Assembly (NCBI RefSeq): GCF_016412875.1
Contig: NZ_JAEKPD010000013.1
Coordinates: forward strand, 62,001-126,000
Source: Palleronia pontilimi
Lineage (GTDB): Bacteria; Pseudomonadota; Alphaproteobacteria; Rhodobacterales; Rhodobacteraceae
DNA: 64,000 nt
Direction of reading: 5' to 3'
Part shown: in pieces, positions 8,694 through 35,294 of the stretch
Numbering within the stretch: position 1 is the stretch's first letter
Layout: each line of letters opens with the position of its first letter
Program-made: the position numbers and the translations under genes
Notes under the pieces: generated by a model
Seen by the model: the letters and a program-made list of their open reading frames with translations, nothing else
Database searches by the model: none
Told to the model about the DNA's origin: nothing

Positions 8694-8726
8694 TGTTCCC
8701 CGTCTATCGACGCCCAGGCCGGGCGC

Positions 8727-9683: not shown

Positions 9684-9686
9684 GGC

Positions 9687-11099
<1,413 letters not shown>

Positions 11100-11119
11100 G
11101 GCTTATCCTTTTCCCCGCG

Positions 11120-13493: not shown

Positions 13494-13972
13494 CCGATCT
13501 GCCTCATTTCGAGCGAGTAGCTGATCGTCACCGGGCTGCTGAGGATGGCGGAAAACGCAGGCGATCCCTGGTGCACGACGGTGCCCACAACCTTGACGAT
13601 GTCGTCATCCTGGGGGGCCGTGGAAAGCGACCCCTTCGAAGGGTACAAGAGCAGCTGGCTGCTGTCGTCCCAGCCCGGAACGCGTCGGGGCTCGTTTGTT
13701 CCCGGCACGGGCGTGCCGTAGAAGGCGATATTACGGGCGGTCGTCTCGTTGCAGGCGCTGGGCACGGTGGGCGAGAAGACAGGTCTGCAGCGCGACCAGT
13801 AGCGCGCAGCATCGCGCACGCCCATGGCCAGTTGCTGCCGCTCCCACATCATGTAGCCGAATTCCAGCAAGCCGAAGGAAATGATGGACATGACCGGGAA
13901 GGCGATCAGCGCTTCGACGAGCACGGCGCCGCGCTCGTCCCTAGAATACCCCAGTTTCCCCAACATCTTCAT
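13487..13972 (-). CDS. tadE: TadE-like pseudopilin 1
   Basis: Protein of 161 residues. The N-terminus is basic and polar (YSRDERGAVLVEALIAFPVM), then a single span, then a soluble domain with a Cys pair (C72, C79 region). This is the TadE-like domain pattern: a glutamate a few residues after the expected cleavage site. The overlap of seven bases with the next gene shows coupling. It starts 81 bases after the small lipoprotein gene. Confidence 0.88.
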   Translation of the reverse strand: MKMLGKLGYSRDERGAVLVEALIAFPVMSIISFGLLEFGYMMWERQQLAMGVRDAARYWSRCRPVFSPTVPSACNETTARNIAFYGTPVPGTNEPRRVPGWDDSSQLLLYPSKGSLSTAPQDDDIVKVVGTVVHQGSPAFSAILSSPVTISYSLEMRQIGW

Positions 13973-14053
13973 AACGACTTCTCAAATGAACTGAGTCGAT
14001 CCCGCGTCCCCACGACACGGGATGAACTCGTCTTGGCCCACCGCGCCGACGGT

Positions 14054-14266
14054 TCACCCGTCGGCGTCGATCGGTGTATTGTAGGTCGCGCGCGGAAACG
14101 CCTCGATCGTCTGGATGCCGGTATTCGCCATGTGTGCGTTGCCGCCCCGGAACGACACCGTGTCCCAGTGATTGAGGTAATCCGCGGATCCACAGCCCGA
14201 AAGCGTCAGCACGACCGCTCCGAGACCGAGTGCGAAACGCGCCTTATTTCTTGTTGATGACGGCAT
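14054..14266 (-). CDS. small lipoprotein at the CpaD position of the Tad locus
   Basis: Seventy-residue lipoprotein. The signal peptide ends in LTLSGC, a clear lipobox, so the mature protein starts with a lipidated cysteine and is only about 50 residues long. The tail (AHMANTGIQTIEAFPRATYNT) resembles the short stretch found in CpaD-like pilus lipoproteins that act with the secretin, but the large CpaD domain is missing. I chose ATG at 14266; a longer frame reads back into cpaC. It overlaps the cpaC stop by 23 bases. It may serve as a minimal secretin partner (pilotin-like), which is inference. Confidence 0.75.
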   Translation of the reverse strand: MPSSTRNKARFALGLGAVVLTLSGCGSADYLNHWDTVSFRGGNAHMANTGIQTIEAFPRATYNTPIDADG

Positions 14267-15695
14267 CTTCGAACTCCAGATCAATGATATGGCCATAGGG
14301 ACCGACGACGCCGTTCCCATCGCGGAAGCGGCGCAGAAGATCGCGGTCGACTTCGAGCATCCCCAGCAGGAACAGTTCGACATCGTTGGACGAGCGCGTC
14401 GAGTCCAGCGGTGAGCTGAGCGGCGTGTTCGGCCCGACCGGCGCGACCAGACGCGGCGTTACCAGGATCACCAGGTCCGACTCACGCTTCTGGAAGCTGC
14501 GCGAGCTGAACAGGGTGCCCAGCACCGGGATCTGGCCTAGCCACGGCACCTGACTGGTATTGCGTGCGTTGTTGGCCTGCAGAAGCCCCGCGATCGCGAA
14601 GCTCTGGCCGTTGCGCAGCGACACAGTCGTTTCCGCCTTGCGCGAGATGAAGGCGGGCTGACCGTTGACTGTCAGCGACGGGTCGATATCCGACACCTCG
14701 GGCGAGATGCGCAAGCTGATTAGCTCGTCGTCCAGCACCGTCGGCACGAAGTTCAGGCGCACACCGTATTCGCGGTAGTCGGTGCCCTCGACCACGAAGC
14801 CGTTCTCGTTGACCGAAGTGGACGAGATCGGAACCTCGCCGCCGACGACGAAATTCGCCTCGACCCCGTTGGTCGTAACGAGCTTGGGGTTGGCCAGGCG
14901 GCGGGCAAGGCCCTTGTTCTCGAGCGCGTTGATCACGACGTCGATCTGGACGCCGGAAATCTCGAGCAACTCGCCGATCAGCGACCCGAAAGGTGCCCCG
15001 TTCTGGGCCGCGACACTCGCGCCGTTGGTGACGAAGGCGGTCTGCCCGCTTTCGCGCGTGCCGGTCAGGCTGACGCCGAGGTTGCGGCCGGCGTTGCGCT
15101 CGACCTCGAGGATCCGCACGTCGAGCTCGACCTGCTGGGCACTGGCCACCGAAATCGTATCGATCACCGGATCGGTCGAGAATTGCGCCGCGATGTCGAG
15201 CACGCGCTTCTTGTCCACGTTGTCCTTCACCGTGCCCGACAGGCGGATGCGGTTGTTGACGTTCATCACGCTGATCTGCGCGCTGGGAACGGCGCGCGCG
15301 ATCGCCCGCTCGAGCTGCGAGAAATCCACCCGGACGCGCACGTCGATCACTTCGAGCAGCTGCTTGTCGTTCGAATACAGCGTGATGTTCGTGACGCCGG
15401 TGGTCTTGGCCTGGATGTATAGCGACGTGTCGGTTAGCGGAAAGACATCGGCAATCGCGTTATCACCGATCAGGATGTCCGCGAAGGGCCGGTCGGTCGT
15501 GACCGTGAGCGTCGTGCTTGGCGCGATCTCGACCGTCGACAGGACGCCATCGTCGATCCTGATGTCGCGGGTTTGGGCGTCGGCCGGGCCAGAGGCCTGG
15601 AAAAGCGCGGATACCGCGAGAAGCGCGGCCCCGATCAATGTTGTGAAATGGCGGGCCCCGGGGGGGCTGCCGATCTTGTGTTTCAAATGATTCAT
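14244..15695 (-). CDS. cpaC: Tad pilus outer-membrane secretin CpaC/RcpA
   Basis: Secretin of 483 residues. It has a cleavable signal peptide (ends near ADA at about 40), a BON-like/pilus-formation domain, then the secretin core with the conserved segments VPWLGQIPVLGTLF and SDLVILVTPRLVAP. It forms the outer-membrane channel for the Flp pilus. There are 58 bases between it and cpaB. Length and motif order match CpaC. Confidence 0.94.
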   Translation of the reverse strand: MNHLKHKIGSPPGARHFTTLIGAALLAVSALFQASGPADAQTRDIRIDDGVLSTVEIAPSTTLTVTTDRPFADILIGDNAIADVFPLTDTSLYIQAKTTGVTNITLYSNDKQLLEVIDVRVRVDFSQLERAIARAVPSAQISVMNVNNRIRLSGTVKDNVDKKRVLDIAAQFSTDPVIDTISVASAQQVELDVRILEVERNAGRNLGVSLTGTRESGQTAFVTNGASVAAQNGAPFGSLIGELLEISGVQIDVVINALENKGLARRLANPKLVTTNGVEANFVVGGEVPISSTSVNENGFVVEGTDYREYGVRLNFVPTVLDDELISLRISPEVSDIDPSLTVNGQPAFISRKAETTVSLRNGQSFAIAGLLQANNARNTSQVPWLGQIPVLGTLFSSRSFQKRESDLVILVTPRLVAPVGPNTPLSSPLDSTRSSNDVELFLLGMLEVDRDLLRRFRDGNGVVGPYGHIIDLEFEDAVINKK

Positions 15696-15753
15696 AACTG
15701 CGGGCCTGTTCCGTTTCTGCTCGATCTTCGTACAGAGCCAGCGATCCGTGATC

Positions 15754-16842
15754 TCAATTCGTCACTTGGATCAACTGCTCCGCGCCTTCTTCGATAGTCT
15801 CCACGCCGTATGTTTCGGCTTCGGTCGGATCGACCCGGTATTCTTGGCGCTGACCGTTGCCACGGGTCACGCCGATGACTGCCTTGCGCGGCGGCACGTA
15901 GGGCTGCGGGACGACGCGCTCGACCTCGACGACACGCTCGACGACAGTCGGCTCGGTTTCGCGCATCAGTTCTTCGAAATTCGACAAGCGGTCGGTGAAG
16001 CCGTCGGACATGTTGCGCAGCATCTCTTCGAGTTCCTGCAGGCGCTCGTCGTCGGCATCGGGCTCAGCGGCCAGTTCGGCCTCGGGCAGCAGGTTCTCGG
16101 CGACGTCCAGATCGCTCAGGTCGTCGATGGTGATCCGCTCATTCGCCTCGACCTCGGTCGATGCCAGGTTGCGCAGCGTCAGCGACAGCTGTCCGACATT
16201 GCCGGCCAGGACCAGCTTCTGCGCCTCTTCGGTGTTCACCTCGAACGTCACGGTGCGCACGACACTGGGCTGATCCTTGCGGTCGTCGGCGATCTGGTCG
16301 ATCGCCAAGACTTTCACGCCCTGCAGTAGGACATCGACGTATTCGCCGCGCACCAGAAGGATGTCGACGCGGTCGCCGGGAAGCACGAAGCCCGCCACGC
16401 CGAGCACGTCGTTCACACGGATCGACACGGCCTTGAGGCCGGGCGTCAGAGCTGTTGACAACTTGGCGCGCACGCCGGGAAGCGTGACCCTGCTAGCCAG
16501 GATCGGCTCGCCCGCCGCCATGGTCGTCAACGCGAAGCGCGCATTATCTTCCTGATCGTCAGGGATCAGGTCCGCGATCGTCTTGAATGCGCCGTCAGGC
16601 TCGATTTCGCCGGACCATTCGATCGTGCGCACCTTGTTGGGCAGCAGGCGTTCCCCGAAGCTGATGGACTCGGTCGCGACAACAATCGTGTTTTTTGGAG
16701 CCTGGTCGCCAGGTGCCCCCTGCTCGGTGATTTGACGGGTCAGCAATTGCCGTTCGCTTGCCAGCCAGCCGCGCGCACCGAAAACAGCAAGCGCCGCCAG
16801 AACGACAGCGACCATCAGACTCAGGACCATAGACAAGCGCAT
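15754..16842 (-). CDS. cpaB: Flp pilus assembly protein CpaB/RcpC
   Basis: About 362 residues. An N-terminal membrane anchor (residues 1-22) is followed by an SAF domain (VATESISFGERLLP, PGDRVDILLVRGEY) typical of CpaB, then an acidic linker and a C-terminal tail with RGNGQRQEYRV. CpaB is a periplasmic component that may hold the secretin to the inner-membrane complex. I prefer ATG at 16842, since the GGGGAG ribosome site lies 12 bases before it; a GTG at 16854 touches that site. Confidence 0.9.
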   Translation of the reverse strand: MRLSMVLSLMVAVVLAALAVFGARGWLASERQLLTRQITEQGAPGDQAPKNTIVVATESISFGERLLPNKVRTIEWSGEIEPDGAFKTIADLIPDDQEDNARFALTTMAAGEPILASRVTLPGVRAKLSTALTPGLKAVSIRVNDVLGVAGFVLPGDRVDILLVRGEYVDVLLQGVKVLAIDQIADDRKDQPSVVRTVTFEVNTEEAQKLVLAGNVGQLSLTLRNLASTEVEANERITIDDLSDLDVAENLLPEAELAAEPDADDERLQELEEMLRNMSDGFTDRLSNFEELMRETEPTVVERVVEVERVVPQPYVPPRKAVIGVTRGNGQRQEYRVDPTEAETYGVETIEEGAEQLIQVTN

Positions 16843-16894
16843 CGGATTTCCCACTCCCCCGGATGTGTGTCAGATATCACCCGCCCTTATTCAC

Positions 16895-16907
16895 CGTGTC
16901 AGACACG
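16895..16907. promoter_or_regulatory. short palindrome upstream of cpaB
   Basis: CGTGTC-A-GACACG, a perfect 6+6 palindrome 53-65 bases before the cpaB start. GTGTCAGA occurs again at 16867-16874, closer to cpaB. It could be an operator, or part of an mRNA leader, in the 300-base gap between flp and cpaB. No known regulator is matched. Confidence 0.25.
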
Positions 16908-17099
16908 ATGTTCCCGTGATGGAAATGTTTCAGGGTTGACATGAGCAGGCAACGAACTAGACGCGAATTTTCTAATCTGATGTATTTTTCCGACGATTTC
17001 TTCGGCGGGCTTCATGAACTTCGAAGCGAAACCATTTACGCTATTGAAATGAACGGGTTGCGGTCCCAGCTTGCACCGGGACCACGACTTGGCTTCGGT

Positions 17100-17131
17100 G
17101 TCCGGGCGCTGCGTGACGCGGGCGCCCGGAC
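17100..17131 (-). terminator. stem-loop just after flp (likely transcript attenuator)
   Basis: GTCCGGGCGC and GCGCCCGGAC form a perfect 10-bp GC-rich stem with a 12-base loop, starting 12 bases past the flp stop. No T-run follows on the minus strand. Such stems after pilin genes commonly stabilise the pilin message and let only part of transcription pass to the assembly genes. That is the likely role here, between flp and cpaB. Confidence 0.5.
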
Positions 17132-17142
17132 GCCGGTTCCGA

Positions 17143-17352
17143 TCAGGTCGGAGTGCTACCCAGCGCAGACGCGATCCACAGCCCCCAGTTTTGCCAGGCC
17201 AGCGACAGCTGCTGGCCAAAGATCAAAACGGTTCCGATGACGCCGCCGATCAGAAGACCCAAGACGACGAGATATTCCGACAGCGCCAGGCCTTCGTCCT
17301 CGCTGTAATAGCGACGCACCAGGTCAGTCATGTAAGAAGTTACTTTTTGCAT
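17143..17352 (-). CDS. flp: Flp/Fap type IVb major pilin
   Basis: Sixty-nine residues. A short cytoplasmic leader (to about residue 20) is followed by DEGLALSEYLVVLGLLIGGVIG, the Flp prepilin pattern: cleavage after the glycine, glutamate at mature position 5 and tyrosine next to it. The rest is one hydrophobic helix and a short tail. It is the structural subunit of the Tad pilus. A GGAG ribosome site lies nine bases before ATG 17352. It stands alone behind its own AT-rich promoter region. Confidence 0.95.
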   Translation of the reverse strand: MQKVTSYMTDLVRRYYSEDEGLALSEYLVVLGLLIGGVIGTVLIFGQQLSLAWQNWGLWIASALGSTPT

Positions 17353-17602
17353 TTAATTGCTCCAATTCCTCGAGATGTACCCCATGAACACCCCTTCACT
17401 TACGCTCGACATTCGGTTGCTTGGATGGATGCCTCGGTCCCCACTCCGGCCCGTCGTCTTTGTATTGCCAGAATTAAGCCATAATCCGCTGATCCCACAA
17501 GCTTATTAGCAGACTATTGCCACATTTTGCGTTTTGTGATGGCCAATTGCATCGACGTGACCCGATTATCTTACGAATGATTACAGTGTATTTCAGCGAC
17601 TC

Positions 17603-17622
17603 CCCCGGAATTAAATCCGGGG
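17603..17622 (-). terminator. stem-loop downstream of tadG
   Basis: CCCCGGA, six bases (ATTAAA), TCCGGGG: a 7-bp GC-rich stem with AT loop, about 90 bases after the tadG stop. No T-run follows leftward. It may end the tadD-tadV-tadG transcript or sit in the flp upstream region as a regulatory structure. Confidence 0.35.
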
Positions 17623-17682
17623 TTGAATTAAGAAGACCCATTAAACCTTGGATTGCGAACCATCCACAGTATCGCCGCAATT

Positions 17683-17709
17683 GATTCGCAGCGATTCGCG
17701 GTGATTCGC
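17683..17709. repeat. three GATTCGC repeats spaced exactly 10 bases
   Basis: GATTCGC occurs at 17683, 17693 and 17703, one DNA turn apart, ending at the tadG stop codon. This phasing is typical of multi-site protein binding or of a local duplication. Confidence 0.55.
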
Positions 17710-19434
17710 CTACCTGACCAGAAAAGCTTCTTTGCGAATCAAATCGTCGAGCGAGCCCAAGCCGCCACTGCCCAGCAGATCGACGATTTCGACATCGACC
17801 GTCGTGCCCGCGGACGGGTTCCAGGTCTTCATCGGACGCGTGAGGAAAATCCGGGCATAGGTGTTCACGTTCAGATCCGTGTTCCCCCCGGCCCCGGTTT
17901 CGGATTCACCCACGCAATCGATCATCGCGGCCACCAACGTCCGCGGATCCGCCGAAGGATCTACGGACGTGATCGACGTGAAGTTGCGGGTGAAATCCTG
18001 GGTCGAGCAATAGGGCGCGGCGACTTCGCCACCGGTGTCCTGGGCCTGGTTCGACGGCAGGCGCATCGTGGTTAAGTTCGGGGTCGGCGTCTCGATCTCC
18101 CAACGATAGACGTCATAACGCGACGCCTGTTTTCCGCTGAACGTCGAAGGGATCGACGCGGGCGTGTAGGCCTGCGATGGGAAGTTCACGTCCAGATACC
18201 GCTGCAGGTTCCAGTTCGAGTCCGTTCCCACATACGCGCCCGGCGTGCCCGTCTCGCCTGCCTTTTTCGGCGGGTTCGTCATGGCATCATTGTCTGGGAA
18301 GCCGTAGACGCCGTCGATCTTGCCGTTCTCGCCCCAGTATAGTCCCGAAACCGGGTCGATCTTCGTCGGGTCGGTCCATCCGGTCGCAAGGTCGATGATA
18401 TGGTCGTCGCCGAACCGGCCTTGCGGCGTCCCTGCAGGGGCGCCGGTGGGCTTCACGCAGTCGTTGAAGTTTTGGCCGGTCTTCTTCGGGATGAACCCCT
18501 TGCGCACGTTCTGCGCGATCGCGGGCAGGTATGTGAGCCCTTGCCCAGAGCCGTAGCCCTGGTTCGGCATCATGTCGAAGCGCACATTCAGGCCGTCGGC
18601 GATCGCCTCGCGCGCGCCGGGCGACGTGTTCACGGTGTCGCCGTTGCGGATGCAGATGGGCACGCGGCCGCCCGCGAAATAATCGTTCAAGGCCGCGGTG
18701 CCATTGGCCCCGTCCACCGACAGGAATCCGAAATTGCCCGGAAACGCCGTCGAGCCGCCGCCCGGATGCAGGCGGATCATGCGGCCGTGCAGGTTGCCTG
18801 CGGCGAATTCCCTTTGCAACCGGTCAGGATCGGCTACGCCGAGATCGGTGAATTCGAACGGGTTGCAAACGAAAAGCGGCGGCACCTCGCAGATCGACGA
18901 CTCGGACGTGGCGACGGCGATGGCGCCCACCGGCTGCGAACTGGGAACCCCGAACCGCGAGAAGATCCCGTCGAAAATCAGCTGAAGCGAGAATTCCGAC
19001 GGAGAATAGGCGCGCACATAGACGTATTCGGGCGAGGTCGACAGCGTCTCGGCGTTGTGCGCGGTGATCCAGGCCGTGTCGATGACGGTGGTGTCGTCGG
19101 TGGGAATGGCGTCCAAGAAGTAGACATCGAACCGGTCGTCGCTGGCGGGGTTGAACGTCACCGATTTGGTCGTCGTCCCGTTGAAGCTGAGCATCCCGAC
19201 AGGATTGGTCAACTCGCCCATGGCCGCGCGGGCGTCCGCGATCTGCGTTGACGTGCCGTCCAGTTCGCGCGCGCCGGTCAGCGCCATCGAATCGACCACC
19301 GCCTGAAGGTCTGCATGGGCATTGTTGCCCCGTCCGATATCGATCAGGATTAGTCCGAACCCCAGAAACACCGGCAGCAAAAGCAGCATCATGACCAAGA
19401 CGAAACCGTCCTGCAAATCGCGCAAATATTTCAT
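17710..19434 (-). CDS. tadG: TadG-like pilus assembly protein
   Basis: About 574 residues. The N-terminus (QDGFVLVMMLLLLPVFLGFGLILIDIGR) is the TadG/TadE-type membrane segment, followed by ADLQAVVDSMALTGARELDG, the segment always seen next in TadG proteins. The rest is a large periplasmic domain; I do not see a clear MIDAS motif of a von Willebrand A domain. ATG at 19434 (MKYLRDLQDGF) is chosen; the frame extends 24 residues further up with no family character. It follows the prepilin peptidase by 112 bases. Confidence 0.82.
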   Translation of the reverse strand: MKYLRDLQDGFVLVMMLLLLPVFLGFGLILIDIGRGNNAHADLQAVVDSMALTGARELDGTSTQIADARAAMGELTNPVGMLSFNGTTTKSVTFNPASDDRFDVYFLDAIPTDDTTVIDTAWITAHNAETLSTSPEYVYVRAYSPSEFSLQLIFDGIFSRFGVPSSQPVGAIAVATSESSICEVPPLFVCNPFEFTDLGVADPDRLQREFAAGNLHGRMIRLHPGGGSTAFPGNFGFLSVDGANGTAALNDYFAGGRVPICIRNGDTVNTSPGAREAIADGLNVRFDMMPNQGYGSGQGLTYLPAIAQNVRKGFIPKKTGQNFNDCVKPTGAPAGTPQGRFGDDHIIDLATGWTDPTKIDPVSGLYWGENGKIDGVYGFPDNDAMTNPPKKAGETGTPGAYVGTDSNWNLQRYLDVNFPSQAYTPASIPSTFSGKQASRYDVYRWEIETPTPNLTTMRLPSNQAQDTGGEVAAPYCSTQDFTRNFTSITSVDPSADPRTLVAAMIDCVGESETGAGGNTDLNVNTYARIFLTRPMKTWNPSAGTTVDVEIVDLLGSGGLGSLDDLIRKEAFLVR

Positions 19435-19546
19435 CTCGAATTCCCCGAAGTCCCCACTCCGAAATCCGGGGCGCGTCAGCAAACCAAGCCGTGCCCCAGA
19501 ATTCAATTAACGATGCTAACAAGTTCCGGTCAATTCTGAAACTTGG

Positions 19547-20038
19547 TTACGAAAAAATGAACCACCCCATGCGAAGCGCCATGACCGGCACCGCCGCGAC
19601 CGCCAGGGGCAACCCGTAAGGCACGCGGCCCGAGCGTTTAAGCTCGGCCAGCCAGCCGAAGGCTCCGCGCTCGGCCCCGGCAAAGGCCGACACGGTGATG
19701 ATCAGGTAGAAGAGGATCGAGAAGACCATGAGGAAGACGACGAACGGCGCCAGTCCCATGTAGCCGAGATGCAGTCCCAGCGGCAGCATCAGCTTGGAAT
19801 CGCCCGCCCCCAGCACGCCCAGCATCCACATCATGAACCCAATCACGAACAGAAGTCCGCCCGCCATCAGGTCTTGCCACAGGGTCGGGAAGCCCAGGAA
19901 TCCCTGCGCGGGAAGGTAGAGCAGCAGGAAGGCCAGGACTAACTGGTTGCTGATGGTGAAGGTGCGGATATCGCGCCACGCTATCCAGACGAGCAGGACA
20001 ATCGACGCCAGCTGCGCCAGCAGGGCGAGATACAACAT
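19547..20038 (-). CDS. cpaA: prepilin peptidase CpaA/TadV
   Basis: A24-family aspartic prepilin peptidase, 163 residues, with about five membrane spans. The two catalytic aspartates are in WRDIRTFTISN (the first) and GAGDSKL (the GxGD motif). It cleaves Flp prepilin and the TadE-type pseudopilins. It lies 18 bases after the TPR lipoprotein gene in the same transcription unit. Confidence 0.94.
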   Translation of the reverse strand: MLYLALLAQLASIVLLVWIAWRDIRTFTISNQLVLAFLLLYLPAQGFLGFPTLWQDLMAGGLLFVIGFMMWMLGVLGAGDSKLMLPLGLHLGYMGLAPFVVFLMVFSILFYLIITVSAFAGAERGAFGWLAELKRSGRVPYGLPLAVAAVPVMALRMGWFIFS

Positions 20039-20056
20039 CAGCGTGCGTCCAGGCGA

Positions 20057-20578
20057 TCAGATCCCTCTGAGATCGCCCGGTGCTCTTTTGGGAGAATTGA
20101 CCGAGTTGCGCAGCAGCTCGAGATTGTTGGCCGTCACCGCGTTTGCCGGATCGATCTCGTAGGCGCGCAGGAACAGGGCCCGCGCCGCGACCAGGTCGCC
20201 GCGCAGCAACTTCGAATAGCCGTAATTGTTCAGATACTCAGGGCGGTTGCCGATGACCGGCTGCAACCTGCGATACGCCGCGTCGGACTGGTCGAAGCGG
20301 CGCAGCATGTCGGCGCTGGCCGCGAAGCCCAGCAGCGCCAGCGCGTCGTCGGGCACGACTTCCAGCGCGTCCTTGTAAAGCTTGTAGGACTTTCCGTAAT
20401 TGCCTTCCCGGAACTGCAGCTTGGCCGGTACCAGGCTGGTATCGTTGGGATAGAAATTGACGCTGGCCGTGTCGCGCGTGGTTGCGGGCGAGTCGCTGTA
20501 GGCCGATGTTTCGTTCAGCCCGACGTTTTCGCAAGCCGCCAGCGCCAGAAGGATCGTAACTGCAAAGATACGCTTCAT
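20057..20578 (-). CDS. tadD: TadD-like TPR lipoprotein
   Basis: Protein of 173 residues with a lipoprotein signal (LLALAAC lipobox near residue 15) and three to four TPR-like helical pairs (GKSYKLYKDALEVVPDDALAL, ARALFLRAYEIDPANAV). TadD lipoproteins help secretin assembly in Tad systems. It is the first gene of the tadD-cpaA-tadG unit and has a strong palindrome 54 bases before its start. Confidence 0.85.
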   Translation of the reverse strand: MKRIFAVTILLALAACENVGLNETSAYSDSPATTRDTASVNFYPNDTSLVPAKLQFREGNYGKSYKLYKDALEVVPDDALALLGFAASADMLRRFDQSDAAYRRLQPVIGNRPEYLNNYGYSKLLRGDLVAARALFLRAYEIDPANAVTANNLELLRNSVNSPKRAPGDLRGI

Positions 20579-27199: not shown

Positions 27200-28456
27200 T
27201 CACGGGTCGGGGATCGCGACCCCGTTGAAATAGTCGCTGGTGCGCTGCTGCGCCGCCGTGACGATCCGCATGACCGATGGCAGCGCGGTCGCGGGGAAGG
27301 CGAAATCCAGGGTGTCGATCTGGAAGGCCCTGTCGCCCGCGATCAGGGGCACGATATCCTCGAGCGCGCCGGTGCTGCGCGACGATTGCGACTCGCCCGT
27401 TCCGAACGCCGCGTGTTGCGCATAGGCGCCCAGGAATTGCGCGAAGTTCCGGATCCGGCGCGGGCGGCCCCCGTAGTCGTGCAGCGCGAAGGACAGCGTC
27501 TTTGCCAGCGCGCCGCGCCGATGGGCGAAGGCCGTGCGCGGCAGGTTGTTCATGTAGCCACCGTCGACCCAAACCCCCTGCAAGGCGCGGGCGCTCAGGT
27601 TGCGCGGATGCCCCGCGGGGGCCGCGAAGGTCTGCGCGGTCGCGCTGTCGATGCGGACGGGCTTGAACGCCACCGGGATCGACATCGAGATCCGGGCCGC
27701 CGCGGCGACCGGCATCTTCGGCGACGTGTCGGCCGAGAAGAAGCCGGTCTTCCCGGTCGAAAAGTTCGATCCCGTCAGCACCAGATCGCAACGGAAGATC
27801 CGGCGATGCTCCGCGAAGGTGATGTCGCCATCTTCGGGGCGCCGCGCGCGGCCCTGCTGGGCTGCCACCTTGCGGGCGATGAGCGCGCGAAAGAGCTCGT
27901 GCGCCGCGATGCCCGAGAAGATGCCCCAGTGGCGGTAGATGTTGAAAAGATAGTGCAGCAACCGCGGGCTGCCCAGTTTGCGCAGCAGCGTATCGGTCGG
28001 CGCACCGATCCCGGCGCTGCGCCTGAGCACGGCGTTCAGCGGGTAGCTGAGCGGGCCCGGCAGGACCCGGGACGTCCAGGCGGCATGGTCATCCGTGGAT
28101 CGGCCCACCAGGGCCGGAATGGGCGCGGGATGGGCGGGCTGGTCGAAGAAACGGTTGAAATCGTAGCCGCCGAACAAGAGGCGCTGGAAATCGGCGGGCC
28201 TGAAGCCGCAACTGAGCAGCACCGCCGTCAGCGCCCCCGCCGACGACCCGGCGATCCCCTTGATCTGGCCATCGGGGTCAAGCCGGTGGCCCGCGTAGCG
28301 CAGCACGCCGCGCCGGTTCAGCTCGACCAAGGCGCCCAGGAAGACGATGCCCTTCCCGCCACCGCCCTCGAAACACAGGTATTCGACCGACGGCGCGGCG
28401 ATCCGTTCGATCGCCGTGGGACGGGTGTCTTCGTGGCCGTTGAGCTCGTCTCGCAT
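27200..28456 (-). CDS. patatin-like phospholipase
   Basis: Protein of 418 residues with a patatin fold. The oxyanion-hole glycine run is GGGGKG at 31-36, the nucleophile motif GSSAG puts the serine at 72, and DGG at 298-300 supplies the catalytic aspartate. This Ser-Asp dyad hydrolyses acyl esters of phospholipids. No signal peptide is seen, so the enzyme acts in the cytoplasm or is exported by another route. ATG at 28456 gives the start MRDELNGHED; the frame stays open far upstream inside the subtilase gene. Last gene of the operon, 11 bases after the subtilase stop. Patatins are often effectors or defence nucleases' partners, and here the setting points to a secreted or anti-membrane role, which is inference. 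Confidence 0.88.
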   Translation of the reverse strand: MRDELNGHEDTRPTAIERIAAPSVEYLCFEGGGGKGIVFLGALVELNRRGVLRYAGHRLDPDGQIKGIAGSSAGALTAVLLSCGFRPADFQRLLFGGYDFNRFFDQPAHPAPIPALVGRSTDDHAAWTSRVLPGPLSYPLNAVLRRSAGIGAPTDTLLRKLGSPRLLHYLFNIYRHWGIFSGIAAHELFRALIARKVAAQQGRARRPEDGDITFAEHRRIFRCDLVLTGSNFSTGKTGFFSADTSPKMPVAAAARISMSIPVAFKPVRIDSATAQTFAAPAGHPRNLSARALQGVWVDGGYMNNLPRTAFAHRRGALAKTLSFALHDYGGRPRRIRNFAQFLGAYAQHAAFGTGESQSSRSTGALEDIVPLIAGDRAFQIDTLDFAFPATALPSVMRIVTAAQQRTSDYFNGVAIPDP

Positions 28457-28467
28457 GATGCGCTCCT

Positions 28468-31467
28468 TCAGGCGATGGGTTCGGGTGTTTCGATCCGGTC
28501 CGGGCCCTGCGCGGGATGCGCCGCGCGGTAGGCGGCGAGCGCGCGCTGCGCCCGGGCCCGGCGCTCGGCGAAGACGGCCTGCGCTTGCGGATCGGTGCGG
28601 GCGCGACGGCGGCGGCGGCCCGGACGGGCGGGATCGGGTTCGAGCAGCCGGCCGGGGATTTCGTAGATGTAGACGAAGTCGTCGGCCGCCTGGTTCACCG
28701 TGCGGCTGGCGTCGCGCAGGTTGCGCAGCAGCGTGCGGAACCCGGCCGTGTTGCCCAGTTCGCTGACCAGCACGTCGATCTGCACGTCCATGAAATAAAG
28801 AACGTAGGCCCCCAGCGTGACCCCCCGGTAGCGATGCGCGAAGGGCAGCCGCCTGCGCCGCGCGGTGGTCCATTGGGCAAGGCCGACCCCGGGCAGACGC
28901 GGCCCGCGGCCCAACCGCCGCGAGCGGTCGCGCACTTCCTGGGCGCTGAAGCGCCGCCGGGGACCGCGCAGCGCCAGCGCCAGGCGCGGGGTCGCGCGCG
29001 CGGCGCTTTCCAGGCGTTCGGGCAGGATCCCGGACTCGGACTCGAGATTGCCGACGATCCCGGCGGCGGCGTTGACCGGGAAGCGGTAGTGGTCGATCAG
29101 CCGCTCCATCACGTGGACGCGGCGCTGGTCGAGCGGCACCTGAACCCAGTCCACGATCGGGCCCAGGCGGCGCAGCTGGCGCCGGGTGATCGCCGCCGCC
29201 GCCGAGGCGGGCGCGGATTGCGGGAAACCGCAGGCCGCCGACGGCCCGGCCACCCCGCCGCTGAAGGCGGTCTCGCGCTCGCAGGCGATCAGGTGCGCGA
29301 TGTTCAGCCGGTTGCGCGCGTCGTCCGGTCCGATCATCGGCGATGTCGGCGCGGGCGTGCTGCGATTGGCGGTCAGCTGCGCCTCGACGAAGCGCCCGAC
29401 CGTCTGCCAGTCGCCGTCGCCCAGCGGCATGGCGGCCACGAGCTGGCGCGCCAGCGGGTCGAGCACGGAGTCGCTGACGCGCGTCTGCCGCGGGATGGGG
29501 TGGGTTATGGTGGGTGTCCCCTGGATCCGATTGCGCCGGTTCAGAAGGGCCTGCGCGCAGGCGCGGGCGGCCGCGACGGGCTGGTCGGGCAGTGCCACGG
29601 CGTTCAGCGCGCTTTGGTTGGGGGCCAGGGCACCACCGCCGTCGACCGGCACCTGCCCGACGCTTACCCAGCTTTCCACCACGCGCCATTCGCTGGCGCT
29701 GATGCGGGACGCGAGCTGTTCCGCGGGACCGCCTGCTTCGCGCGCGGGACGGGCGGCACCGCGCCGGGCGGCGCGCACCGCGGCCGCGGCATCCAGGCGC
29801 CCCCAGGCGCTGCGCAGGCCGACCTCGTCGATATTGGCCGCCATGGGGCGGGCCGTGCGGCGCAGGATGTGTCGGATCTGCGCCTGGCTGAGCGTCGGCG
29901 CGGCCTGCAGCATCAGCGCGACGGTCCCCGTCACGTGCGGCGCGGCCATCGAGGTCCCGTTCATGCGCGTCACCTCGCGGCCCGTGGCCCGCGCCGAGGT
30001 GGCGGAGCGCGCCGACACAATCGCCTCGCCAGGTGCGGCGATCAGCGGCACCGAGCGGCCGTCCCGCGCGGGCCCCGCGGACGAGAAGCGCGTGAAGGCG
30101 TAGGGCGGATCTGCACGATGGGCCGCCACCTGGATCGGCCTGCGTCCGTGGGCGATGGTGCCGCCCGTGGTGCTGTCGCTACGCGGCCCGCGGGTGAAGC
30201 GGGTCTGGTTGCGGCTGCGTCCGTGCCGCTCGAGCCAGGCGTGCCACGTGCCGGTGACGATCCGGCGGGGCGCCAGCCCGGCCTGCCAGACGCCGTCGCT
30301 GCCAGACCCTTCGTAGAGAAAGACGTCGATATGGGTGTCGCCGTTGCCCGGATCGTCCAGCCGGTGATAGGCGCGGCCAAGCACGACGCCGTCCTTTTCC
30401 AGCACGACCCGCGCGCCGGGCGGCACGTCCCAGCGCGTGCCATCGGGGGCGGTGATCTCGAAATCGGTGGTGTCTTCGCCGTTCAGCCAGACTTCCAGTT
30501 CCTTGGTGCCCGTCGCCGCCGGTTGCACCCGCCAGGCGAAGCGGGTGGTCTGTCCGGGGCGCAGGGTGCCCGTGCAGTGGATGTTGCCGCCGTAGTAATT
30601 GCCCGCGCTCTGGACGATGGACACGCCGCGGCGGGTGTCCAGCACGTGGTCCATGGCCTGCTCGATCAGCGTGCTGCCGTCGTGCGGGCCACCGTGGCGA
30701 CCCATCGAGATGTTGACGGCGGCGGGCCGGTCGCCCGCGCTTTGCAGGATGAAGTCCAGCGCTTCGAGCACACCCACGCTGTCGCCGAAATTCAGCAGCC
30801 CCGACGTGTCGCCGCTGTCCACGTGGACGAACACGATATCCGCGTCCGGTGCCATGCCGACAGGACCGTCGCTGTCCAGGCCGCCCGCGGCGATGCCGAG
30901 CACGTGGGTGCCGTGGCTGGGATGCCTGCGGCCATCCGCGCCGCGCGACGACGGCATGTAGCCCAGCGCGCGATAGGGGTTCGCCTGGCGCAATGCCCGG
31001 TCCAGGTGGCGCGTCTTCCAGACCCGGCCCTGGTCGAACGGATCGGGGGACAGCCCGGTGCGGGCGCGCGCGCCCTGATGCCAGAGCGCTTCGATCCGGC
31101 TGGCCCCGTCGGGCTTGCGGAACGCGCGGTGGGCGAAATCGCAGCCGTAGTCGATGACGCCAAGCACGACGCCCGCGCCGGTCTCGCGGACCTGTGGACG
31201 GCGCACCTGGCCGCTCCGGGTGGGCGGGGTCGTGCCGGGACGCGACGCGGGTTCGAGCCCGCGCGCGGCTTTCAGCGAGCGCACCGAGGCATGGCTTCGC
31301 GCCGCGAGGATATCGCTGCGGCGCAGACGGCAGGTCAGGATGTCGCCGAAGCGGCTGACCGGGCGCAATGTGGCGGGCGGGCTCATGCCGGGATAGAGGC
31401 GCACGAGGGCGCGGATATCCTCGTCCGCGGCGCCACGCTCGATCTCTTCCCAAAGTTGCGGGTCCAT
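28468..31467 (-). CDS. subtilase (S8) fused to a phage-tail-lysozyme-like domain
   Basis: Protein of 999 residues. Residues 95-560 are a subtilisin-like protease with D106 (VIDYG), H185 (HGTHV), oxyanion Asn 290 (SAGN) and S506 (NGTSMAAPH), so the triad is complete. An insertion at about 295-415 looks like a beta-sandwich. The C-terminal part (about 770-930) has a segment with AAAGIVGNLESESG and GVGLAQWT, the pattern of the phage-tail-type lysozyme domain. No signal peptide; the N-terminal ~90 residues may be a prodomain. A protease joined to a wall-cutting domain could open or pass peptidoglycan. It is the largest gene of an operon of unknown small proteins plus a patatin. Confidence 0.85.
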   Translation of the reverse strand: MDPQLWEEIERGAADEDIRALVRLYPGMSPPATLRPVSRFGDILTCRLRRSDILAARSHASVRSLKAARGLEPASRPGTTPPTRSGQVRRPQVRETGAGVVLGVIDYGCDFAHRAFRKPDGASRIEALWHQGARARTGLSPDPFDQGRVWKTRHLDRALRQANPYRALGYMPSSRGADGRRHPSHGTHVLGIAAGGLDSDGPVGMAPDADIVFVHVDSGDTSGLLNFGDSVGVLEALDFILQSAGDRPAAVNISMGRHGGPHDGSTLIEQAMDHVLDTRRGVSIVQSAGNYYGGNIHCTGTLRPGQTTRFAWRVQPAATGTKELEVWLNGEDTTDFEITAPDGTRWDVPPGARVVLEKDGVVLGRAYHRLDDPGNGDTHIDVFLYEGSGSDGVWQAGLAPRRIVTGTWHAWLERHGRSRNQTRFTRGPRSDSTTGGTIAHGRRPIQVAAHRADPPYAFTRFSSAGPARDGRSVPLIAAPGEAIVSARSATSARATGREVTRMNGTSMAAPHVTGTVALMLQAAPTLSQAQIRHILRRTARPMAANIDEVGLRSAWGRLDAAAAVRAARRGAARPAREAGGPAEQLASRISASEWRVVESWVSVGQVPVDGGGALAPNQSALNAVALPDQPVAAARACAQALLNRRNRIQGTPTITHPIPRQTRVSDSVLDPLARQLVAAMPLGDGDWQTVGRFVEAQLTANRSTPAPTSPMIGPDDARNRLNIAHLIACERETAFSGGVAGPSAACGFPQSAPASAAAAITRRQLRRLGPIVDWVQVPLDQRRVHVMERLIDHYRFPVNAAAGIVGNLESESGILPERLESAARATPRLALALRGPRRRFSAQEVRDRSRRLGRGPRLPGVGLAQWTTARRRRLPFAHRYRGVTLGAYVLYFMDVQIDVLVSELGNTAGFRTLLRNLRDASRTVNQAADDFVYIYEIPGRLLEPDPARPGRRRRRARTDPQAQAVFAERRARAQRALAAYRAAHPAQGPDRIETPEPIA

Positions 31468-31537
31468 CTGCGGCTCCCTTTCACGATGCCTGGGGGAATG
31501 GGGGCGCGGGACCGCAGGGAACGGACCCGCGCCGGTG

Positions 31538-31936
31538 TCACTTCTTCGTCCGGGCGCTGTCCGACGCGGATTTCTGGTCCTGCTCGAGCGACGCCATGCG
31601 CTGGTTCAGCGTCTCTTGCGTGGCCGCCACGTCCTGCAGGCCCTGGTCCAGCCGATCCATCCGCTCGATCACGTCGGACATCTGCGCATCGGGCTGGGAC
31701 CCGGTCGGCGCTTGTGTCACGACCACGTCGCCCGGCCCGTTATCCGCCGGGCGCGGTGGCGGCGACATCGCTTTCAGCCGGGGCGCCAGCGCCAGGGGCA
31801 GGACGATCGCGGCGGTGGAATTGTCGCGCGCCACCGCGGCGTTCAGGATGCCCAGCCGCATGGCGGCGGCCTGGTTGAGCTGTTGCGTCCGGCCGACGAT
31901 GAGGCCGGTGGCAAAGGCGTTCATGTTGAAACTCAT
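31538..31936 (-). CDS. unknown 132-residue protein with C-terminal coiled coil
   Basis: Not recognised. The first half is alanine/leucine-rich (GRTQQLNQAAAMRLGILNAA, STAAIVLPLALAPRLKAM), then a proline-rich linker, then a charged helix (VIERMDRLDQGLQDVAATQ) with heptad spacing typical of a coiled coil, ending in a basic tail. It lies nine bases after the acidic 221-residue protein gene and 70 bases before the subtilase. Probably a small structural or adaptor protein of the operon. Confidence 0.65.
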   Translation of the reverse strand: MSFNMNAFATGLIVGRTQQLNQAAAMRLGILNAAVARDNSTAAIVLPLALAPRLKAMSPPPRPADNGPGDVVVTQAPTGSQPDAQMSDVIERMDRLDQGLQDVAATQETLNQRMASLEQDQKSASDSARTKK

Positions 31937-31945
31937 GGCACCCCC

Positions 31946-32611
31946 CTATTGCTTGAGGAGCAGCATCAGCATCAGCGGGTTGTCGAACCCCGTGCCGCCG
32001 CCCGATGATCCCATCATCAGCGGAAGCAGCGCCGTCAGCTCGTCGCCCTTCCGATCCAACGAGACCTGTTGCAGGTTGCCGGTCCCATCGAGCTTGACGT
32101 CGGTGACGTCGTACTGGGCCGATCCCGAATCCAGCAGCGACATCAGAAGGCTCAACTGCCGCTGATCCGCCATTTCCTTGCGGATCGCGGCGATTTCCTT
32201 CGACTGCTTGCGATTCAGCCGATCGACATTGCCGAGACGCGAACGGTTGGACGAGATCCGCCGGGCGTTGATCTTGATTGCGGCGCCGTTGCGGCGGATG
32301 TCGCGGCCGACCCGGGCCAGGCTCTTGCGCAGCTCGGTCCGCTTGACGTAGCCGCGCAGCTGGCGCTGCAGATAGCCCGTGCCACTGCCCGTCTTCGGCT
32401 TGCCGCGCCGGCGGCGGCGACGGCGGCGGCCGCGCCGCTCGGCGTCGTCATCGTCGTCTTCGTCGAACTCGAGGACGCCTTCGTCGAAGTCGAACTCGGC
32501 CGCCTCGTCTTCGTCGAGATCTTCGTCGAATTCGTCGTCATACATGTCGTCGTCATCGTGGAATTCGTCGAATTCCAGCTCGTAGTCGTTTTCGATCAGC
32601 TCGGGTTCCAT
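31946..32611 (-). CDS. unknown 221-residue protein: acidic block, arginine block, coiled coil
   Basis: Not recognised. Residues 1-58 are almost all Asp, Glu, Phe and Tyr, broken by short runs such as DEFDEDLDEDEA. They are followed at once by an arginine run (RRGRRRRRRRRGKPK, about 59-74). A helical region with coiled-coil character follows (KSLARVGRDIRRN, NRKQSKEIAAIRKEMADQ), then a C-terminal glycine/leucine tail (GSSGGGTGFDNPLMLMLLL). The charge switch is extreme and its codon use is normal, so it is a genuine gene. It may bind nucleic acid, polyanions or a partner with the opposite charge; none of this is shown by sequence. Confidence 0.7.
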   Translation of the reverse strand: MEPELIENDYELEFDEFHDDDDMYDDEFDEDLDEDEAAEFDFDEGVLEFDEDDDDDAERRGRRRRRRRRGKPKTGSGTGYLQRQLRGYVKRTELRKSLARVGRDIRRNGAAIKINARRISSNRSRLGNVDRLNRKQSKEIAAIRKEMADQRQLSLLMSLLDSGSAQYDVTDVKLDGTGNLQQVSLDRKGDELTALLPLMMGSSGGGTGFDNPLMLMLLLKQ

Positions 32612-32626
32612 CGTGACTTTCTCCTT

Positions 32627-33142
32627 TCAGTCAACTTGGCTGCGGGTGGCCGCGACGGACATGCGTCCGATGGCCGAGGGCGCCTGCGCATCCGTGGGCC
32701 GGCGGCGCGGGCGTTTCAGCCGGTCCAGGACCGGCAGAACGAAATAGTCGAAGGCTTCGCGGTGCGGCGGGCGACTGCCGGGCAGACCGTCTCCGTCGCA
32801 ATCGGGGCACGCGGGATCGCCGCCAAGGCAGCGGGGGCACGCGCCAAGGCCCTGGGCCACGTGGGCCAGCACGGTCTCGAGCCAGCCGATCCTGAGATCG
32901 GCCCGTTCCAGCAGGTCTGCCGCATGTGACGGGATCTGCGTTTCGCTGTCCGCACCGGGATCCGACGGTGCGCCTGGCGCGTCGGGCGGCGGGGTGTCGC
33001 CGGACATCATCGCCTGCAGCAGGCTGACTTGCTCGGCCGAGATCCGGCCGCGGGCCTTCAGCACCTCCAGGATCGCCGCGGGGCCTGACGGCAGGCTGGC
33101 GGCGAGATCGGGCAGCGACGCGGCATCTGTGGAATGGGTCAT
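32627..33142 (-). CDS. unknown 171-residue protein with DnaJ-like CxxC pairs
   Basis: Not recognised. Near residues 110-130 it has CPRCLGGDPACPDCDGDG, two CxxC pairs with glycines spaced as in the DnaJ zinc-finger repeat, so zinc binding is likely. The front half is proline and acidic-rich (PPPDAPGAPSDPGADSE). I take ATG at 33142, which has GAGGA eight bases upstream; another ATG at 33160 would overlap the preceding stop by eight bases. Second-last small gene before the acidic protein. Confidence 0.65.
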   Translation of the reverse strand: MTHSTDAASLPDLAASLPSGPAAILEVLKARGRISAEQVSLLQAMMSGDTPPPDAPGAPSDPGADSETQIPSHAADLLERADLRIGWLETVLAHVAQGLGACPRCLGGDPACPDCDGDGLPGSRPPHREAFDYFVLPVLDRLKRPRRRPTDAQAPSAIGRMSVAATRSQVD

Positions 33143-33152
33143 CGCGGTGTCC

Positions 33153-33995
33153 TCAGCCATGGGGGAAAGTGGGGCCGTAATCTTCGTTCCAGGTGTCGAA
33201 GACCGAGGCCGGGTCGGGCGCCTGGTAGACCAGCGCATCGAGCGCGGCGGTGAAGGGATGGGTGGCGGGGTCGGTTTCGGCCAGCGCCTGCCAGATGGCC
33301 GCGCCGTCGGGGAAGGCCGCCGCTTCGCCGTAGCCGGTGCCCGCGCCCGCCGCGCAGGCATAGGGCAGGACTTCCAGCACCGCTTCGGGCCGAACCGGGG
33401 TCTGCATCCGTCCCACCGGGACGCTTTGTCGACCCAGCGCGCCTGCCCCCAGCGCCATCAGCGCCTGGATGATTTCGGGCCGCGACAAGAGCTGCAACAG
33501 CTGCAGCGTCGCGGCCTGCGCCTGGGGCGCGCGGTGTTGCGGCATCATGGGGGATGGCGCGGCAGGGCGCGGCTGGGCCGGGCTGGGCTGCGCTGGGATG
33601 GGCGCGGGACTTGGGCCTTGGCGGCGGGCCTGTTGGGATTGCCGATAGCTCATCGCACCGCCGCCCAGCGCGCCCAGCGCGGCGCCCGCCAGCATCCCGT
33701 AGGGACCAAGCGCCGCACCCATCGTGGCACCCTGCATCGCGCCGCTCAGCGCACCCGGGGCCGCCTGCCCCGCGACCCGGCCGACGCTGCGCAGCCCTTG
33801 CGACAGGCCGCGGCCGATATTTCGCAGGTCCAGCTCGAGCGCATCCAGATCGACGCCGGGCACCACGTGGTATGCCGCCTCGGCAAGTTCGCTGTCGGAC
33901 AGGCCGACCAGGTCTTCGCGCAGGACGCTGCGCAGGGCCGGGTAACGGCTTGCCGCCGGAAAGGGATCCTGGTGGGCGAATTCGCTATGGGTCAC
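33153..33995 (-). CDS. unknown 280-residue protein with glycine-zipper segment
   Basis: Not recognised. Residues 1-60 are polar and acidic (SDSELAEAAYHVVPGVDLDAL). Residues 70-115 form a long alanine/glycine stretch (SGAMQGATMGAALGPYGMLA) with small-residue spacing of a glycine zipper, which can insert in membranes or pack helices. A Gln/Pro-rich linker and a C-terminal domain with one CACAAG-like cysteine pair follow. Proteins with a short acidic head and a glycine zipper occur in several gene clusters with secreted proteases, but I know no function. Overlaps the 74-residue gene stop by 11 bases. Confidence 0.65.
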   Translation of the reverse strand: MTHSEFAHQDPFPAASRYPALRSVLREDLVGLSDSELAEAAYHVVPGVDLDALELDLRNIGRGLSQGLRSVGRVAGQAAPGALSGAMQGATMGAALGPYGMLAGAALGALGGGAMSYRQSQQARRQGPSPAPIPAQPSPAQPRPAAPSPMMPQHRAPQAQAATLQLLQLLSRPEIIQALMALGAGALGRQSVPVGRMQTPVRPEAVLEVLPYACAAGAGTGYGEAAAFPDGAAIWQALAETDPATHPFTAALDALVYQAPDPASVFDTWNEDYGPTFPHG

Positions 33996-34209
33996 GGCGT
34001 GGCTCCTTTCGGGTTCGGGCCTCTTGCAAAGCGGCGCTGCTTTCCACGATCAGCCGCCGAAGCTCGGCGAAATCGCGAAACGTCTGCGAGACATTGGTTT
34101 CCAGGCAGCGCAGGTGCCCGCCGGGACCGTCGGACATCCGGATTGCGAGCTGGCGAAGCGGGATGCGGATCACGAAGGTCGCGCGGCCCTCGCCGGTCTC
34201 GGTCGTCAC
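33985..34209 (-). CDS. unknown 74-residue protein, first gene of the SARP-divergent operon
   Basis: Not recognised. Small, mixed-charge protein (GRATFVIRIPLRQLAIRMSD, TFRDFAELRRLIVESSAAL) with a probable C-terminal helix and basic end. It begins 221 bases from the divergent SARP-type gene and overlaps the next gene by 11 bases, so it opens the operon that ends with the patatin. Confidence 0.55.
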   Translation of the reverse strand: MTTETGEGRATFVIRIPLRQLAIRMSDGPGGHLRCLETNVSQTFRDFAELRRLIVESSAALQEARTRKEPRRDP

Positions 34210-34430
34210 GATTCGTCCCCTGTTCCGACTCGTTTCCCCGACGCTGGCAGAGCCCGGTCACGGCAGGCTCAACCCGGCTCACCGGAGTTTCACGGGGTGC
34301 GGGGGACAGGAAAAATCTGCGCGGCGCCCCGCTCACCGAGGGGGCCGCGGGAAAAACGCTTTGGCCGCCACAACTGCAGCGGTATCGTTGCGGCATTCGC
34401 TTATTTCTTCAGAAATCGCGGAATTTTTCG

Positions 34431-35294
34431 ATGCCTGACCTGACAATTCGCCATTTCGGCGGTCTTTCTCTTGCGTCCCGAAAGACGCCCGTTCAACTTC
34501 CGGGCGATTTCCCGGCGCCGCTTCTTGGCTTTCTCACGCTGCATCTGGGCAAGCCCGTCGCGCGGTCGATGATCGCGGGGACGCTCTGGCCGGATCTGTC
34601 CGAGCACCGCGCCCGCCGCGCGCTGAGCACCGCGCTGTGGCGACTGACCAGCGTCGAGGCGCTGGCGCCCCACATCCTGCGGTCGCGCAAATCGGTGCGG
34701 CTGGGCCGGGGCGCGTCGGTCTGGTCGGACCTGTCGGCCATGACCCGTCACCTGGCCAGGTCGCTCGGCTGTGCTTCGCGCGCCCCGCGCCAGGCCGCGG
34801 CCCGGCTGGAACGCGCCATCGCGCTGGCCGAGGGCGGCCCGGCCTTCGCCGAGCTTCCCGGCGACTGGGCCGCGGAGGCGCGGTTCACGCTGGAAAATGC
34901 CCAATGCGACGCGCTGTTCCTGGGCGCCCGGATCGCGTCCGAGCTGGGATGCGGCGAGAGGCTCAATCGCTACGCGGCGCGGCTGCTGCGGCTCGAGCCG
35001 TACCGCGAGGACATTCGCCGCTTGCAGATCGAACATGCGCTGGCCGACGGGCATCGCCTGTTCGCCCGGCATCTTTACGAGCAATACGTGGCAATCATGG
35101 AGCGTGAATTCGGCGAACGGCCCGGATTTGCCTTCGCCGATCTTGCGCCCGACCAGCCCGAACGCGGCGCGCGCCCCGATGCGTTCGGCCCGGCGCTGAG
35201 CGCGATCCGCGCGCGGCTGGGACGTGTCGAGCGCGCGCTGGCCGAGCGCCCGAACGCCCGCGACGCGGGGGCCGGTCGCACCGCCTTGGCCTGA
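34431..35294 (+). CDS. SARP/BTAD-type transcriptional activator
   Basis: Protein of 287 residues. The N-terminal half (LTIRHFGGLSLAS through DLSAM, about 1-100) matches the OmpR-like winged helix seen in SARP proteins, with LWPDLSEHRARRALSTALWRL as the recognition area. The second half (about 125-230, ARLERAIALAEGGPAFAELP and YEQYVAIMEREFG) is the bacterial transcriptional activation domain of TPR-like helices. SARPs bind direct repeats and are best known from actinobacterial antibiotic clusters. Divergent from the patatin/subtilase operon, it is the likely activator of that operon. No ATPase or sensor domain is attached. Confidence 0.82.
   Translation: MPDLTIRHFGGLSLASRKTPVQLPGDFPAPLLGFLTLHLGKPVARSMIAGTLWPDLSEHRARRALSTALWRLTSVEALAPHILRSRKSVRLGRGASVWSDLSAMTRHLARSLGCASRAPRQAAARLERAIALAEGGPAFAELPGDWAAEARFTLENAQCDALFLGARIASELGCGERLNRYAARLLRLEPYREDIRRLQIEHALADGHRLFARHLYEQYVAIMEREFGERPGFAFADLAPDQPERGARPDAFGPALSAIRARLGRVERALAERPNARDAGAGRTALA

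Follow-up and report, generated by a model that had tools for sequence, protein, structure and literature searches.

Polymorphic toxin systems join a constant part to an exchangeable C-terminal toxin, carry a secretion leader or signal peptide and an adjacent immunity gene and, in the available part of their description (PMC3482391), include subtilisin domains among their processing proteases. The eCIS operons encode a sheath, tube, baseplate and spike; the accessible portion of PMC8213781 describes adjacent GerE or BTAD regulators and toxins that tend to lie at the 3' end. SARP/AfsR operons pair a BTAD activator with 11-bp direct repeats before the operon, the last of them 8 bp from the -10 element, and SARP operators are given as direct repeats at 11 or 22 bp in the sections of PMC10936776 and PMC5930380 that were available. 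'Broken-hairpin' toxins attack the envelope without a signal peptide, and neither a secretion partner nor an immunity gene is known for them; their proposed exporter is a single short C-terminal domain, and the available part of that account (PMC12419801) mentions no partners like the proteins A–D described below. NucA-trypsin 'System 3', with a core of NucA nuclease and trypsin, is presented in the accessible part of PMC7159879 among alphaproteobacterial multi-peptidase systems with lysozyme-type effectors.

The locus analyzed here occupies positions 27200-35294 of the window, by which we mean the whole 64-kb stretch of DNA under study. It shares with polymorphic toxin systems the constant part and the exchangeable C-terminal domain, but no secretion leader was found in Pfam/NCBIfam scans and no signal by hydropathy, no immunity gene was recognized, and four extra proteins (A–D) stand ahead of the protease; A–D or the first gene of the operon, g1, could themselves be immunity proteins. 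The module recalls eCIS in its patchy distribution across phyla, in the enzymes that close the operon on its 3' side and in a nearby regulator of BTAD or GerE/LuxR type, whereas Pfam and PHROGs matched no sheath, tube, baseplate or spike in the window operon. The activator and its 11-bp repeats are those of a SARP/AfsR operon; the target, however, is no recognized secondary-metabolite cluster, and the repeat core is GTGA. The likeness to 'broken-hairpin' toxins lies in the signal-less envelope enzymes with neither a known secretion partner nor an immunity gene, and that to 'System 3' in the combination of peptidase and lysozyme-type effector; the NucA and trypsin core of the latter had no match in the scans of the window operon.

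Gene reading and Pfam agree with the sequence-only reading that a SARP-type activator on the plus strand (34431..35294, 287 aa; Pfam BTAD 1.4e-10, 42.2 bits against a cut-off of 22.1) is divergent from seven minus-strand genes ending in a patatin. From the regulator outward, these are g1 (33985..34209, 74 aa), A (33153..33995, 280 aa), B (32627..33142, 171 aa), C (31946..32611, 221 aa), D (31538..31936, 132 aa), a fusion of an S8 subtilase with a phage-tail-type lysozyme (28468..31467, 999 aa) and a patatin-like phospholipase (27200..28456, 418 aa). The intergenic gaps, in the same order, are -11, 10, 15, 9, 70 and 11 bp, and a single operon is therefore likely. The activator is the sole BTAD match in the window's genome.

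Protein A has a 'YPxLR' motif near its N-terminus and is conserved again around 'RPExxQAL'; its glycine zipper is a sub-threshold Pfam match (0.0035), as is DUF3482 (0.00011). The pattern of B, GAC-x2-C-x-G-x4-C-x2-C-x-G-x-G, holds four cysteines that are invariant in all 11 aligned homologues. C begins with an acidic N-terminus, followed by an Arg-rich stretch, a likely coiled region and a hydrophobic C-terminal tail, and its tails were compared across all eight loci described below. D is a small protein with hydrophobic stretches in its first part and a variable tail. Peptidase_S8 (1.8e-34) and Phage_lysozyme2 (3.1e-14) were matched by Pfam on one protein, and Patatin (2.3e-24) on the product of the last gene. 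The latter contains GGGGKG, GSSAG and DGG motifs, which we take to have their usual roles in patatins; its top PDB sequence matches, with the first nine residues left out of the query, are ExoU and VipD. Judged by hydropathy, none of the eight window proteins has a strongly hydrophobic N-terminus, in line with the earlier statement that the enzymes lack signal peptides, and the highest 19-residue hydropathy mean among them (1.54) is located within the lysozyme part. The operon was also said to be free of phage structural genes, and Pfam and PHROGs detected no sheath, tube or baseplate gene in it.

Neither A–D nor g1 reached a curated cut-off in Pfam or NCBIfam. Against PHROGs, no match of A–D or g1 was better than 0.019 (C, with a minor tail protein model). 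A–D, g1 and the SARP had no match in PADLOC, A–D finding none among 5027 models at E 0.1; elsewhere in the operon, a generic model recognized the subtilase (8.9e-26), and phospholipase effector models matched weakly (0.01). Profiles of A, B and C compared with the sequences of solved structures returned coil or chance matches only, the best being a designed coil (0.00069, C profile). Convincing HMM matches for the small proteins, first read as unknown, were thus found in none of Pfam, PHROGs, NCBIfam and PADLOC, and Pfam and PHROGs placed A–D in no phage or injection-system family. No earlier description of the module was found in the open-licence literature, so a prior account elsewhere is possible; on these comparisons we rate the gene system as new, with a function that can be inferred only.

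The module of A–B–C–D and the subtilase is well supported as a conserved unit. The order A–B–C–D–S8 is kept in all eight full loci found, from three phyla; the neighbours do not differ in every genome, and the idea of a separate system stands. A subtilase scan of genome contigs yielded Loktanella sp. IMCC34160 (L021), which has every gene of the set, SARP and patatin included, in unchanged order, and Jannaschia sp. Os4 (L022), with A–D and a subtilase-lysozyme. Plasmid records gave the loci of Cupriavidus oxalaticus (L023), Gemmatirosa kalamazoonensis (L024) and Streptomyces canus (L025), which makes three loci carried on plasmids, and genome searches gave two from the window's family (L042, L081). 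Separately, a Tad-type pilus cluster, recognized by eye, is present at window positions 7767-20578, about 7 kb from the module, and was not seen in the 22.9-kb L021 locus.

Profiles of A and C matched in all eight loci. In held-out tests, where the tested row was absent from the profile, A, B and C of L042 were recovered at 4.7e-7, 1.1e-25 and 3.3e-12, B of L025, a gene unannotated in its record, at 5.2e-14, and A, B, C and S8 of L081 at 4.6e-40, 6.5e-22, 6.5e-21 and 2.9e-91. D is placed by position in 8/8 loci, and by position only in three of them (L024, L042, L081); matches of its profile are confined to the five loci that built it, and D of the other three did not beat shuffled decoys. In L042 an extra coiled-coil gene lies between D and S8. 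The likeness of g1 to the first gene of L021 is weak (E 0.005, against 0.04 for the best shuffled decoy), and none was detected in the L081 candidate gene. By sequence comparison, the conserved core is A–B–C–D plus the subtilase, and g1 is at most a candidate member. The five small proteins, initially taken as one set, hold together as far as A–D, conserved by order, with g1 outside the demonstrated core.

When 19 chosen subtilases, which are no census, were placed in a tree, the eight from the module formed one clade (support 97/100; present in 100% of the 200 bootstrap trees). The other sequences were 3 from the related operon described below and 8 relatives in whose fetched neighbourhoods A–D were not found. 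Catalytic D, H and N patterns are present in 8/8 module subtilases and the S pattern in 7/8 by regular expression; S506 of the window protein is invariant in an alignment of seven. The same seven have a conserved N-terminal region ahead of the catalytic domain, and L081 reads alike; this region is like a pro-region and may act as one.

Behind this constant part, the tails differ. A lysozyme is found in 3/8 loci (window, L021, L022). The L023 tail has two stretches of PG-binding type, that of L024 continues for about 1700 residues and gave a sub-threshold MBL-like match, and that of L081 joins PG-binding to an LCAT-type lipase; in L025 nothing was recognized, and L042 has almost no tail. Two L023 proteins and L024 have a 'GD[ILV]' region in common (L023-L024 1.8e-7), as do two L081 proteins (1.1e-33), the L023-L081 link being marginal (~0.001, partly via PG-binding). 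On the Cupriavidus megaplasmid (L023:1682-4653), a second, shorter copy of A adjoins a second effector-like gene, whose product has a GD and PG-binding region in common with the subtilase tail. The next gene, examined in seven loci, also varies: patatin was found in two (window, L021), an M4 peptidase by record annotation in L025, a PG-binding and PLD protein in L081 and a sub-threshold OmpA-like protein in L042; in L022 and L023 it had no Pfam match. Lysozyme and patatin thus look like exchangeable cargo. Of the enzyme set first described, the subtilase is constant; lysozyme was found in the three loci and patatin in the two. Envelope attack as the common theme is upheld by the PG-binding, LCAT-type lipase and PLD parts of other loci; the predatory or lytic purpose first proposed, and action beyond the cell, are conjectural. 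The annotated M4 metallopeptidase that follows the Streptomyces module (L025:13218-14387) has no obvious signal peptide and a start that is presumably protealysin-like.

The module is rare and scattered, and occurs three times on plasmids. The B profile matched 4/295 genomes of the family, or 3/295 after a weak match was dropped (L031, E 4.4e-5, with no other module gene in its 3.2-kb locus), and 1/385 in the class and 1/398 in the phylum, the window's own genome each time. The A profile matched 10/398 genomes in the phylum; nine of these matches were partial, to the glycine zipper, and B, C and D were not detected in their ~3-kb loci. Among relatives, 17/60 genomes matched the subtilase; of the 20 loci scanned (~2-6 kb), only the window's own had module genes. 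Fifty-two plasmid records had an S8 match, and A–D were present in three of the 11 neighbourhoods examined, one of which (L027) ends 590 bases before its subtilase match, so that the absence of A–D there is half seen. Single A or C proteins searched against plasmid records returned the query's own record or nothing. On Rhizobium/Agrobacterium plasmids (L026, L048, L050), related subtilases precede PLD-like genes without A–D; genes nearby encode a caspase (L026, L048) or CHAT (L050).

A richer B profile found 16/390 genomes in the order. Four of these loci are full modules (own, Loktanella, Jannaschia and L081), L082 has A and B only, at a contig start, and the other 11 come from one genus (L070-L080) with a related set. 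In 7/11, a TPR-bearing regulator is divergent from a PAP2 phosphatase, a distant subtilase and a B-type 4-Cys protein; in 4/11 species, B stands alone. The regulator of this set ('variant II') has no BTAD match and is 'SARP-like' on reading by eye; the regulator profile of the module rows found none of the L070-L076 variant II regulators, and that of Jannaschia only at 7.5e-5. The Jannaschia locus has parts of this second set (regulator, PAP2 and distant subtilase) directly next to the main module, which suggests that the two sets work together.

A BTAD gene adjoins A in 6/8 loci (window, L021, L022, L025, L042, L081), over the Pfam cut-off in each. In L042 and L081 it points the same way as the operon, and in the other four it is divergent. 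No BTAD was seen in L023 and L024, where the nearest regulators, AraC-type (L023) and a LuxR/GerE-type response regulator (L024), do not directly adjoin A. Between the window regulator and g1 lies a predicted SARP-type operator (34258..34293, minus strand), with four GTGA-like repeats spaced at 11, 10 and 11 bp, 48 bp before g1. With spacings of 10-12 bp allowed, a four-copy GTGA array stands between regulator and operon in 6/6 BTAD loci, in the opposite orientation in L025; the window array scores 14/16, and 0/500 shuffles reached the score in each locus, counts that are partly circular because the motif was chosen after the regions had been viewed.

Fairer controls were a whole-locus scan, the two non-BTAD loci, eight variant II regions and a search of the own genome. 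On both strands of the 64-kb window, the operon array is the only site scoring at least 13; all such sites in L021, L022, L025 and L081 are at the regulator–operon place, and three sites in L042 reach the threshold, one of them at the operon. In the two non-BTAD loci, the array is absent from the stretch of 400 bp that precedes A, and it was present in 0/8 variant II regions. In the 3.72-Mb genome, a three-copy pattern gave four matches at three places, two of them overlapping at the operon array, and the reversed-pattern control gave none. Control of the operon by the SARP, proposed from the outset, is very likely on this evidence, with binding and activation as predictions; it would offer a direct laboratory switch for the module.

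Three protein families without names (A, B and C) and D travel together across phyla with one subtilase clade whose tails change. As the best explanation, held tentatively, we hypothesize a SARP-switched escort or package for an exchangeable, signal-less hydrolase that is released for antagonism, with delivery and target as its conjectural parts. The SARP would bind the observed GTGA array and switch the operon on. A–D would form a cytosolic escort or package that holds or assembles the signal-less subtilase, with its exchangeable C-terminal part (here lysozyme) and an added free-standing membrane-lipid enzyme (here patatin); association or entry into membranes may be helped by A's glycine zipper and by hydrophobic parts in C and D. 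The load would leave through lysis of some cells or by some other route, the protease may free or activate the warhead, and the protein, peptidoglycan and phospholipid of a neighbour would be attacked.

This escort or package is favoured by the constant core with a variable warhead in 8/8 loci, the 97/100 clade, the SARP operator, the absence of signal-like N-termini among the window proteins, the location of three loci on plasmids and the varied next genes (patatin, M4 peptidase, PG-binding with PLD). Against it, the core has no secretion, attachment or injection gene and no immunity gene was recognized; binding of A–D to the enzymes is inferred, and D may not be a single family. Two loci showed no BTAD regulator, and L042 has a nearly tailless subtilase and an extra coiled-coil gene. 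If A–D do carry the enzymes, the module would be a new device for delivery or packaging, whose cargo could be read and swapped. A bolder form, possible but speculative, makes A–B–C–D a new self-assembling cytosolic carrier, non-contractile, Sec-independent and unlike a phage tail. Hydrolases would be loaded via the constant N-terminus of the subtilase, the glycine zipper of A and the hydrophobic C tails would insert into the target membrane, and the SARP would be the switch of a device whose warhead has been swapped between lineages in at least three phyla.

The main rival is programmed self-lysis or an abortive response, which we regard as possible though doubtful. The SARP would induce cytosolic enzymes that the cell turns on itself, the patatin would open the inner membrane, the lysozyme would reach the wall, and A–D would be a brake or sensor. 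The lack of signal-like N-termini and of a recognized immunity gene, together with the pro-like N-terminal region of the subtilase, fits this course of events. Patatins are effectors in known defence systems, yet the PADLOC phospholipase models matched here only at E 0.01; PADLOC also left A–D unmatched, and a reading by eye of the window showed no defence genes close to the module. PG-binding repeat tails, too, suit use outside the cell. Should self-lysis be true, this would be a new programmed-death module; either way, the unit is defined and testable.

A set of enzymes that serve feeding or development outside the cell or on its surface, with A–D as folding or surface-layer helpers, is unlikely. 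The PDB sequences that best match the subtilase are those of Csp-type germination proteases, and proteases of this type act together with a cortex enzyme. No export signals were seen, however, and the varied lipase, PLD, patatin and lysozyme parts, with plasmids in three loci, suggest conflict instead.

It is more improbable that the module readies a toxin load for an eCIS encoded elsewhere in the genome. BTAD/GerE regulators and 3' toxins are typical of eCIS operons in the available part of PMC8213781, and contig C18 of the window's genome gave two sheath matches, next to genes that read as tail-like by eye. Neither of the two other carriers tested (G197, G199) had a sheath match, however; the SARP array pattern was not found on C18, and the A–D profiles reached a best E of 0.014 there, none convincing. 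In the C18 locus itself (G000; L055:10600-20000, L056), genes recognized by eye as tube-, PAAR- and gp25-like accompany the two phage-sheath matches. This eCIS-like locus is near conjugation-type genes, also by eye, and the genome's sole BTAD match is elsewhere.

Phage-derived cargo, with the module as part of prophages, is very improbable: the Phage_lysozyme2 domain and the position of L081, the sole locus with a phage link seen, near P2-like tail genes (GpU; L083 by eye) speak for it, but reading by eye showed no tail genes next to the window locus or L021, and the seven phage records matched by the subtilase cover no more than 54% of the query. Three IMG/VR matches with A were set aside, as they look like glycine-zipper chance matches. 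In this region (L081:174-593 and 19264-19901, L083:12770-15759), the start of a tape-measure-like gene (by eye) and its small upstream gene are present on both sides of the L081 module, as if duplicated by insertion.
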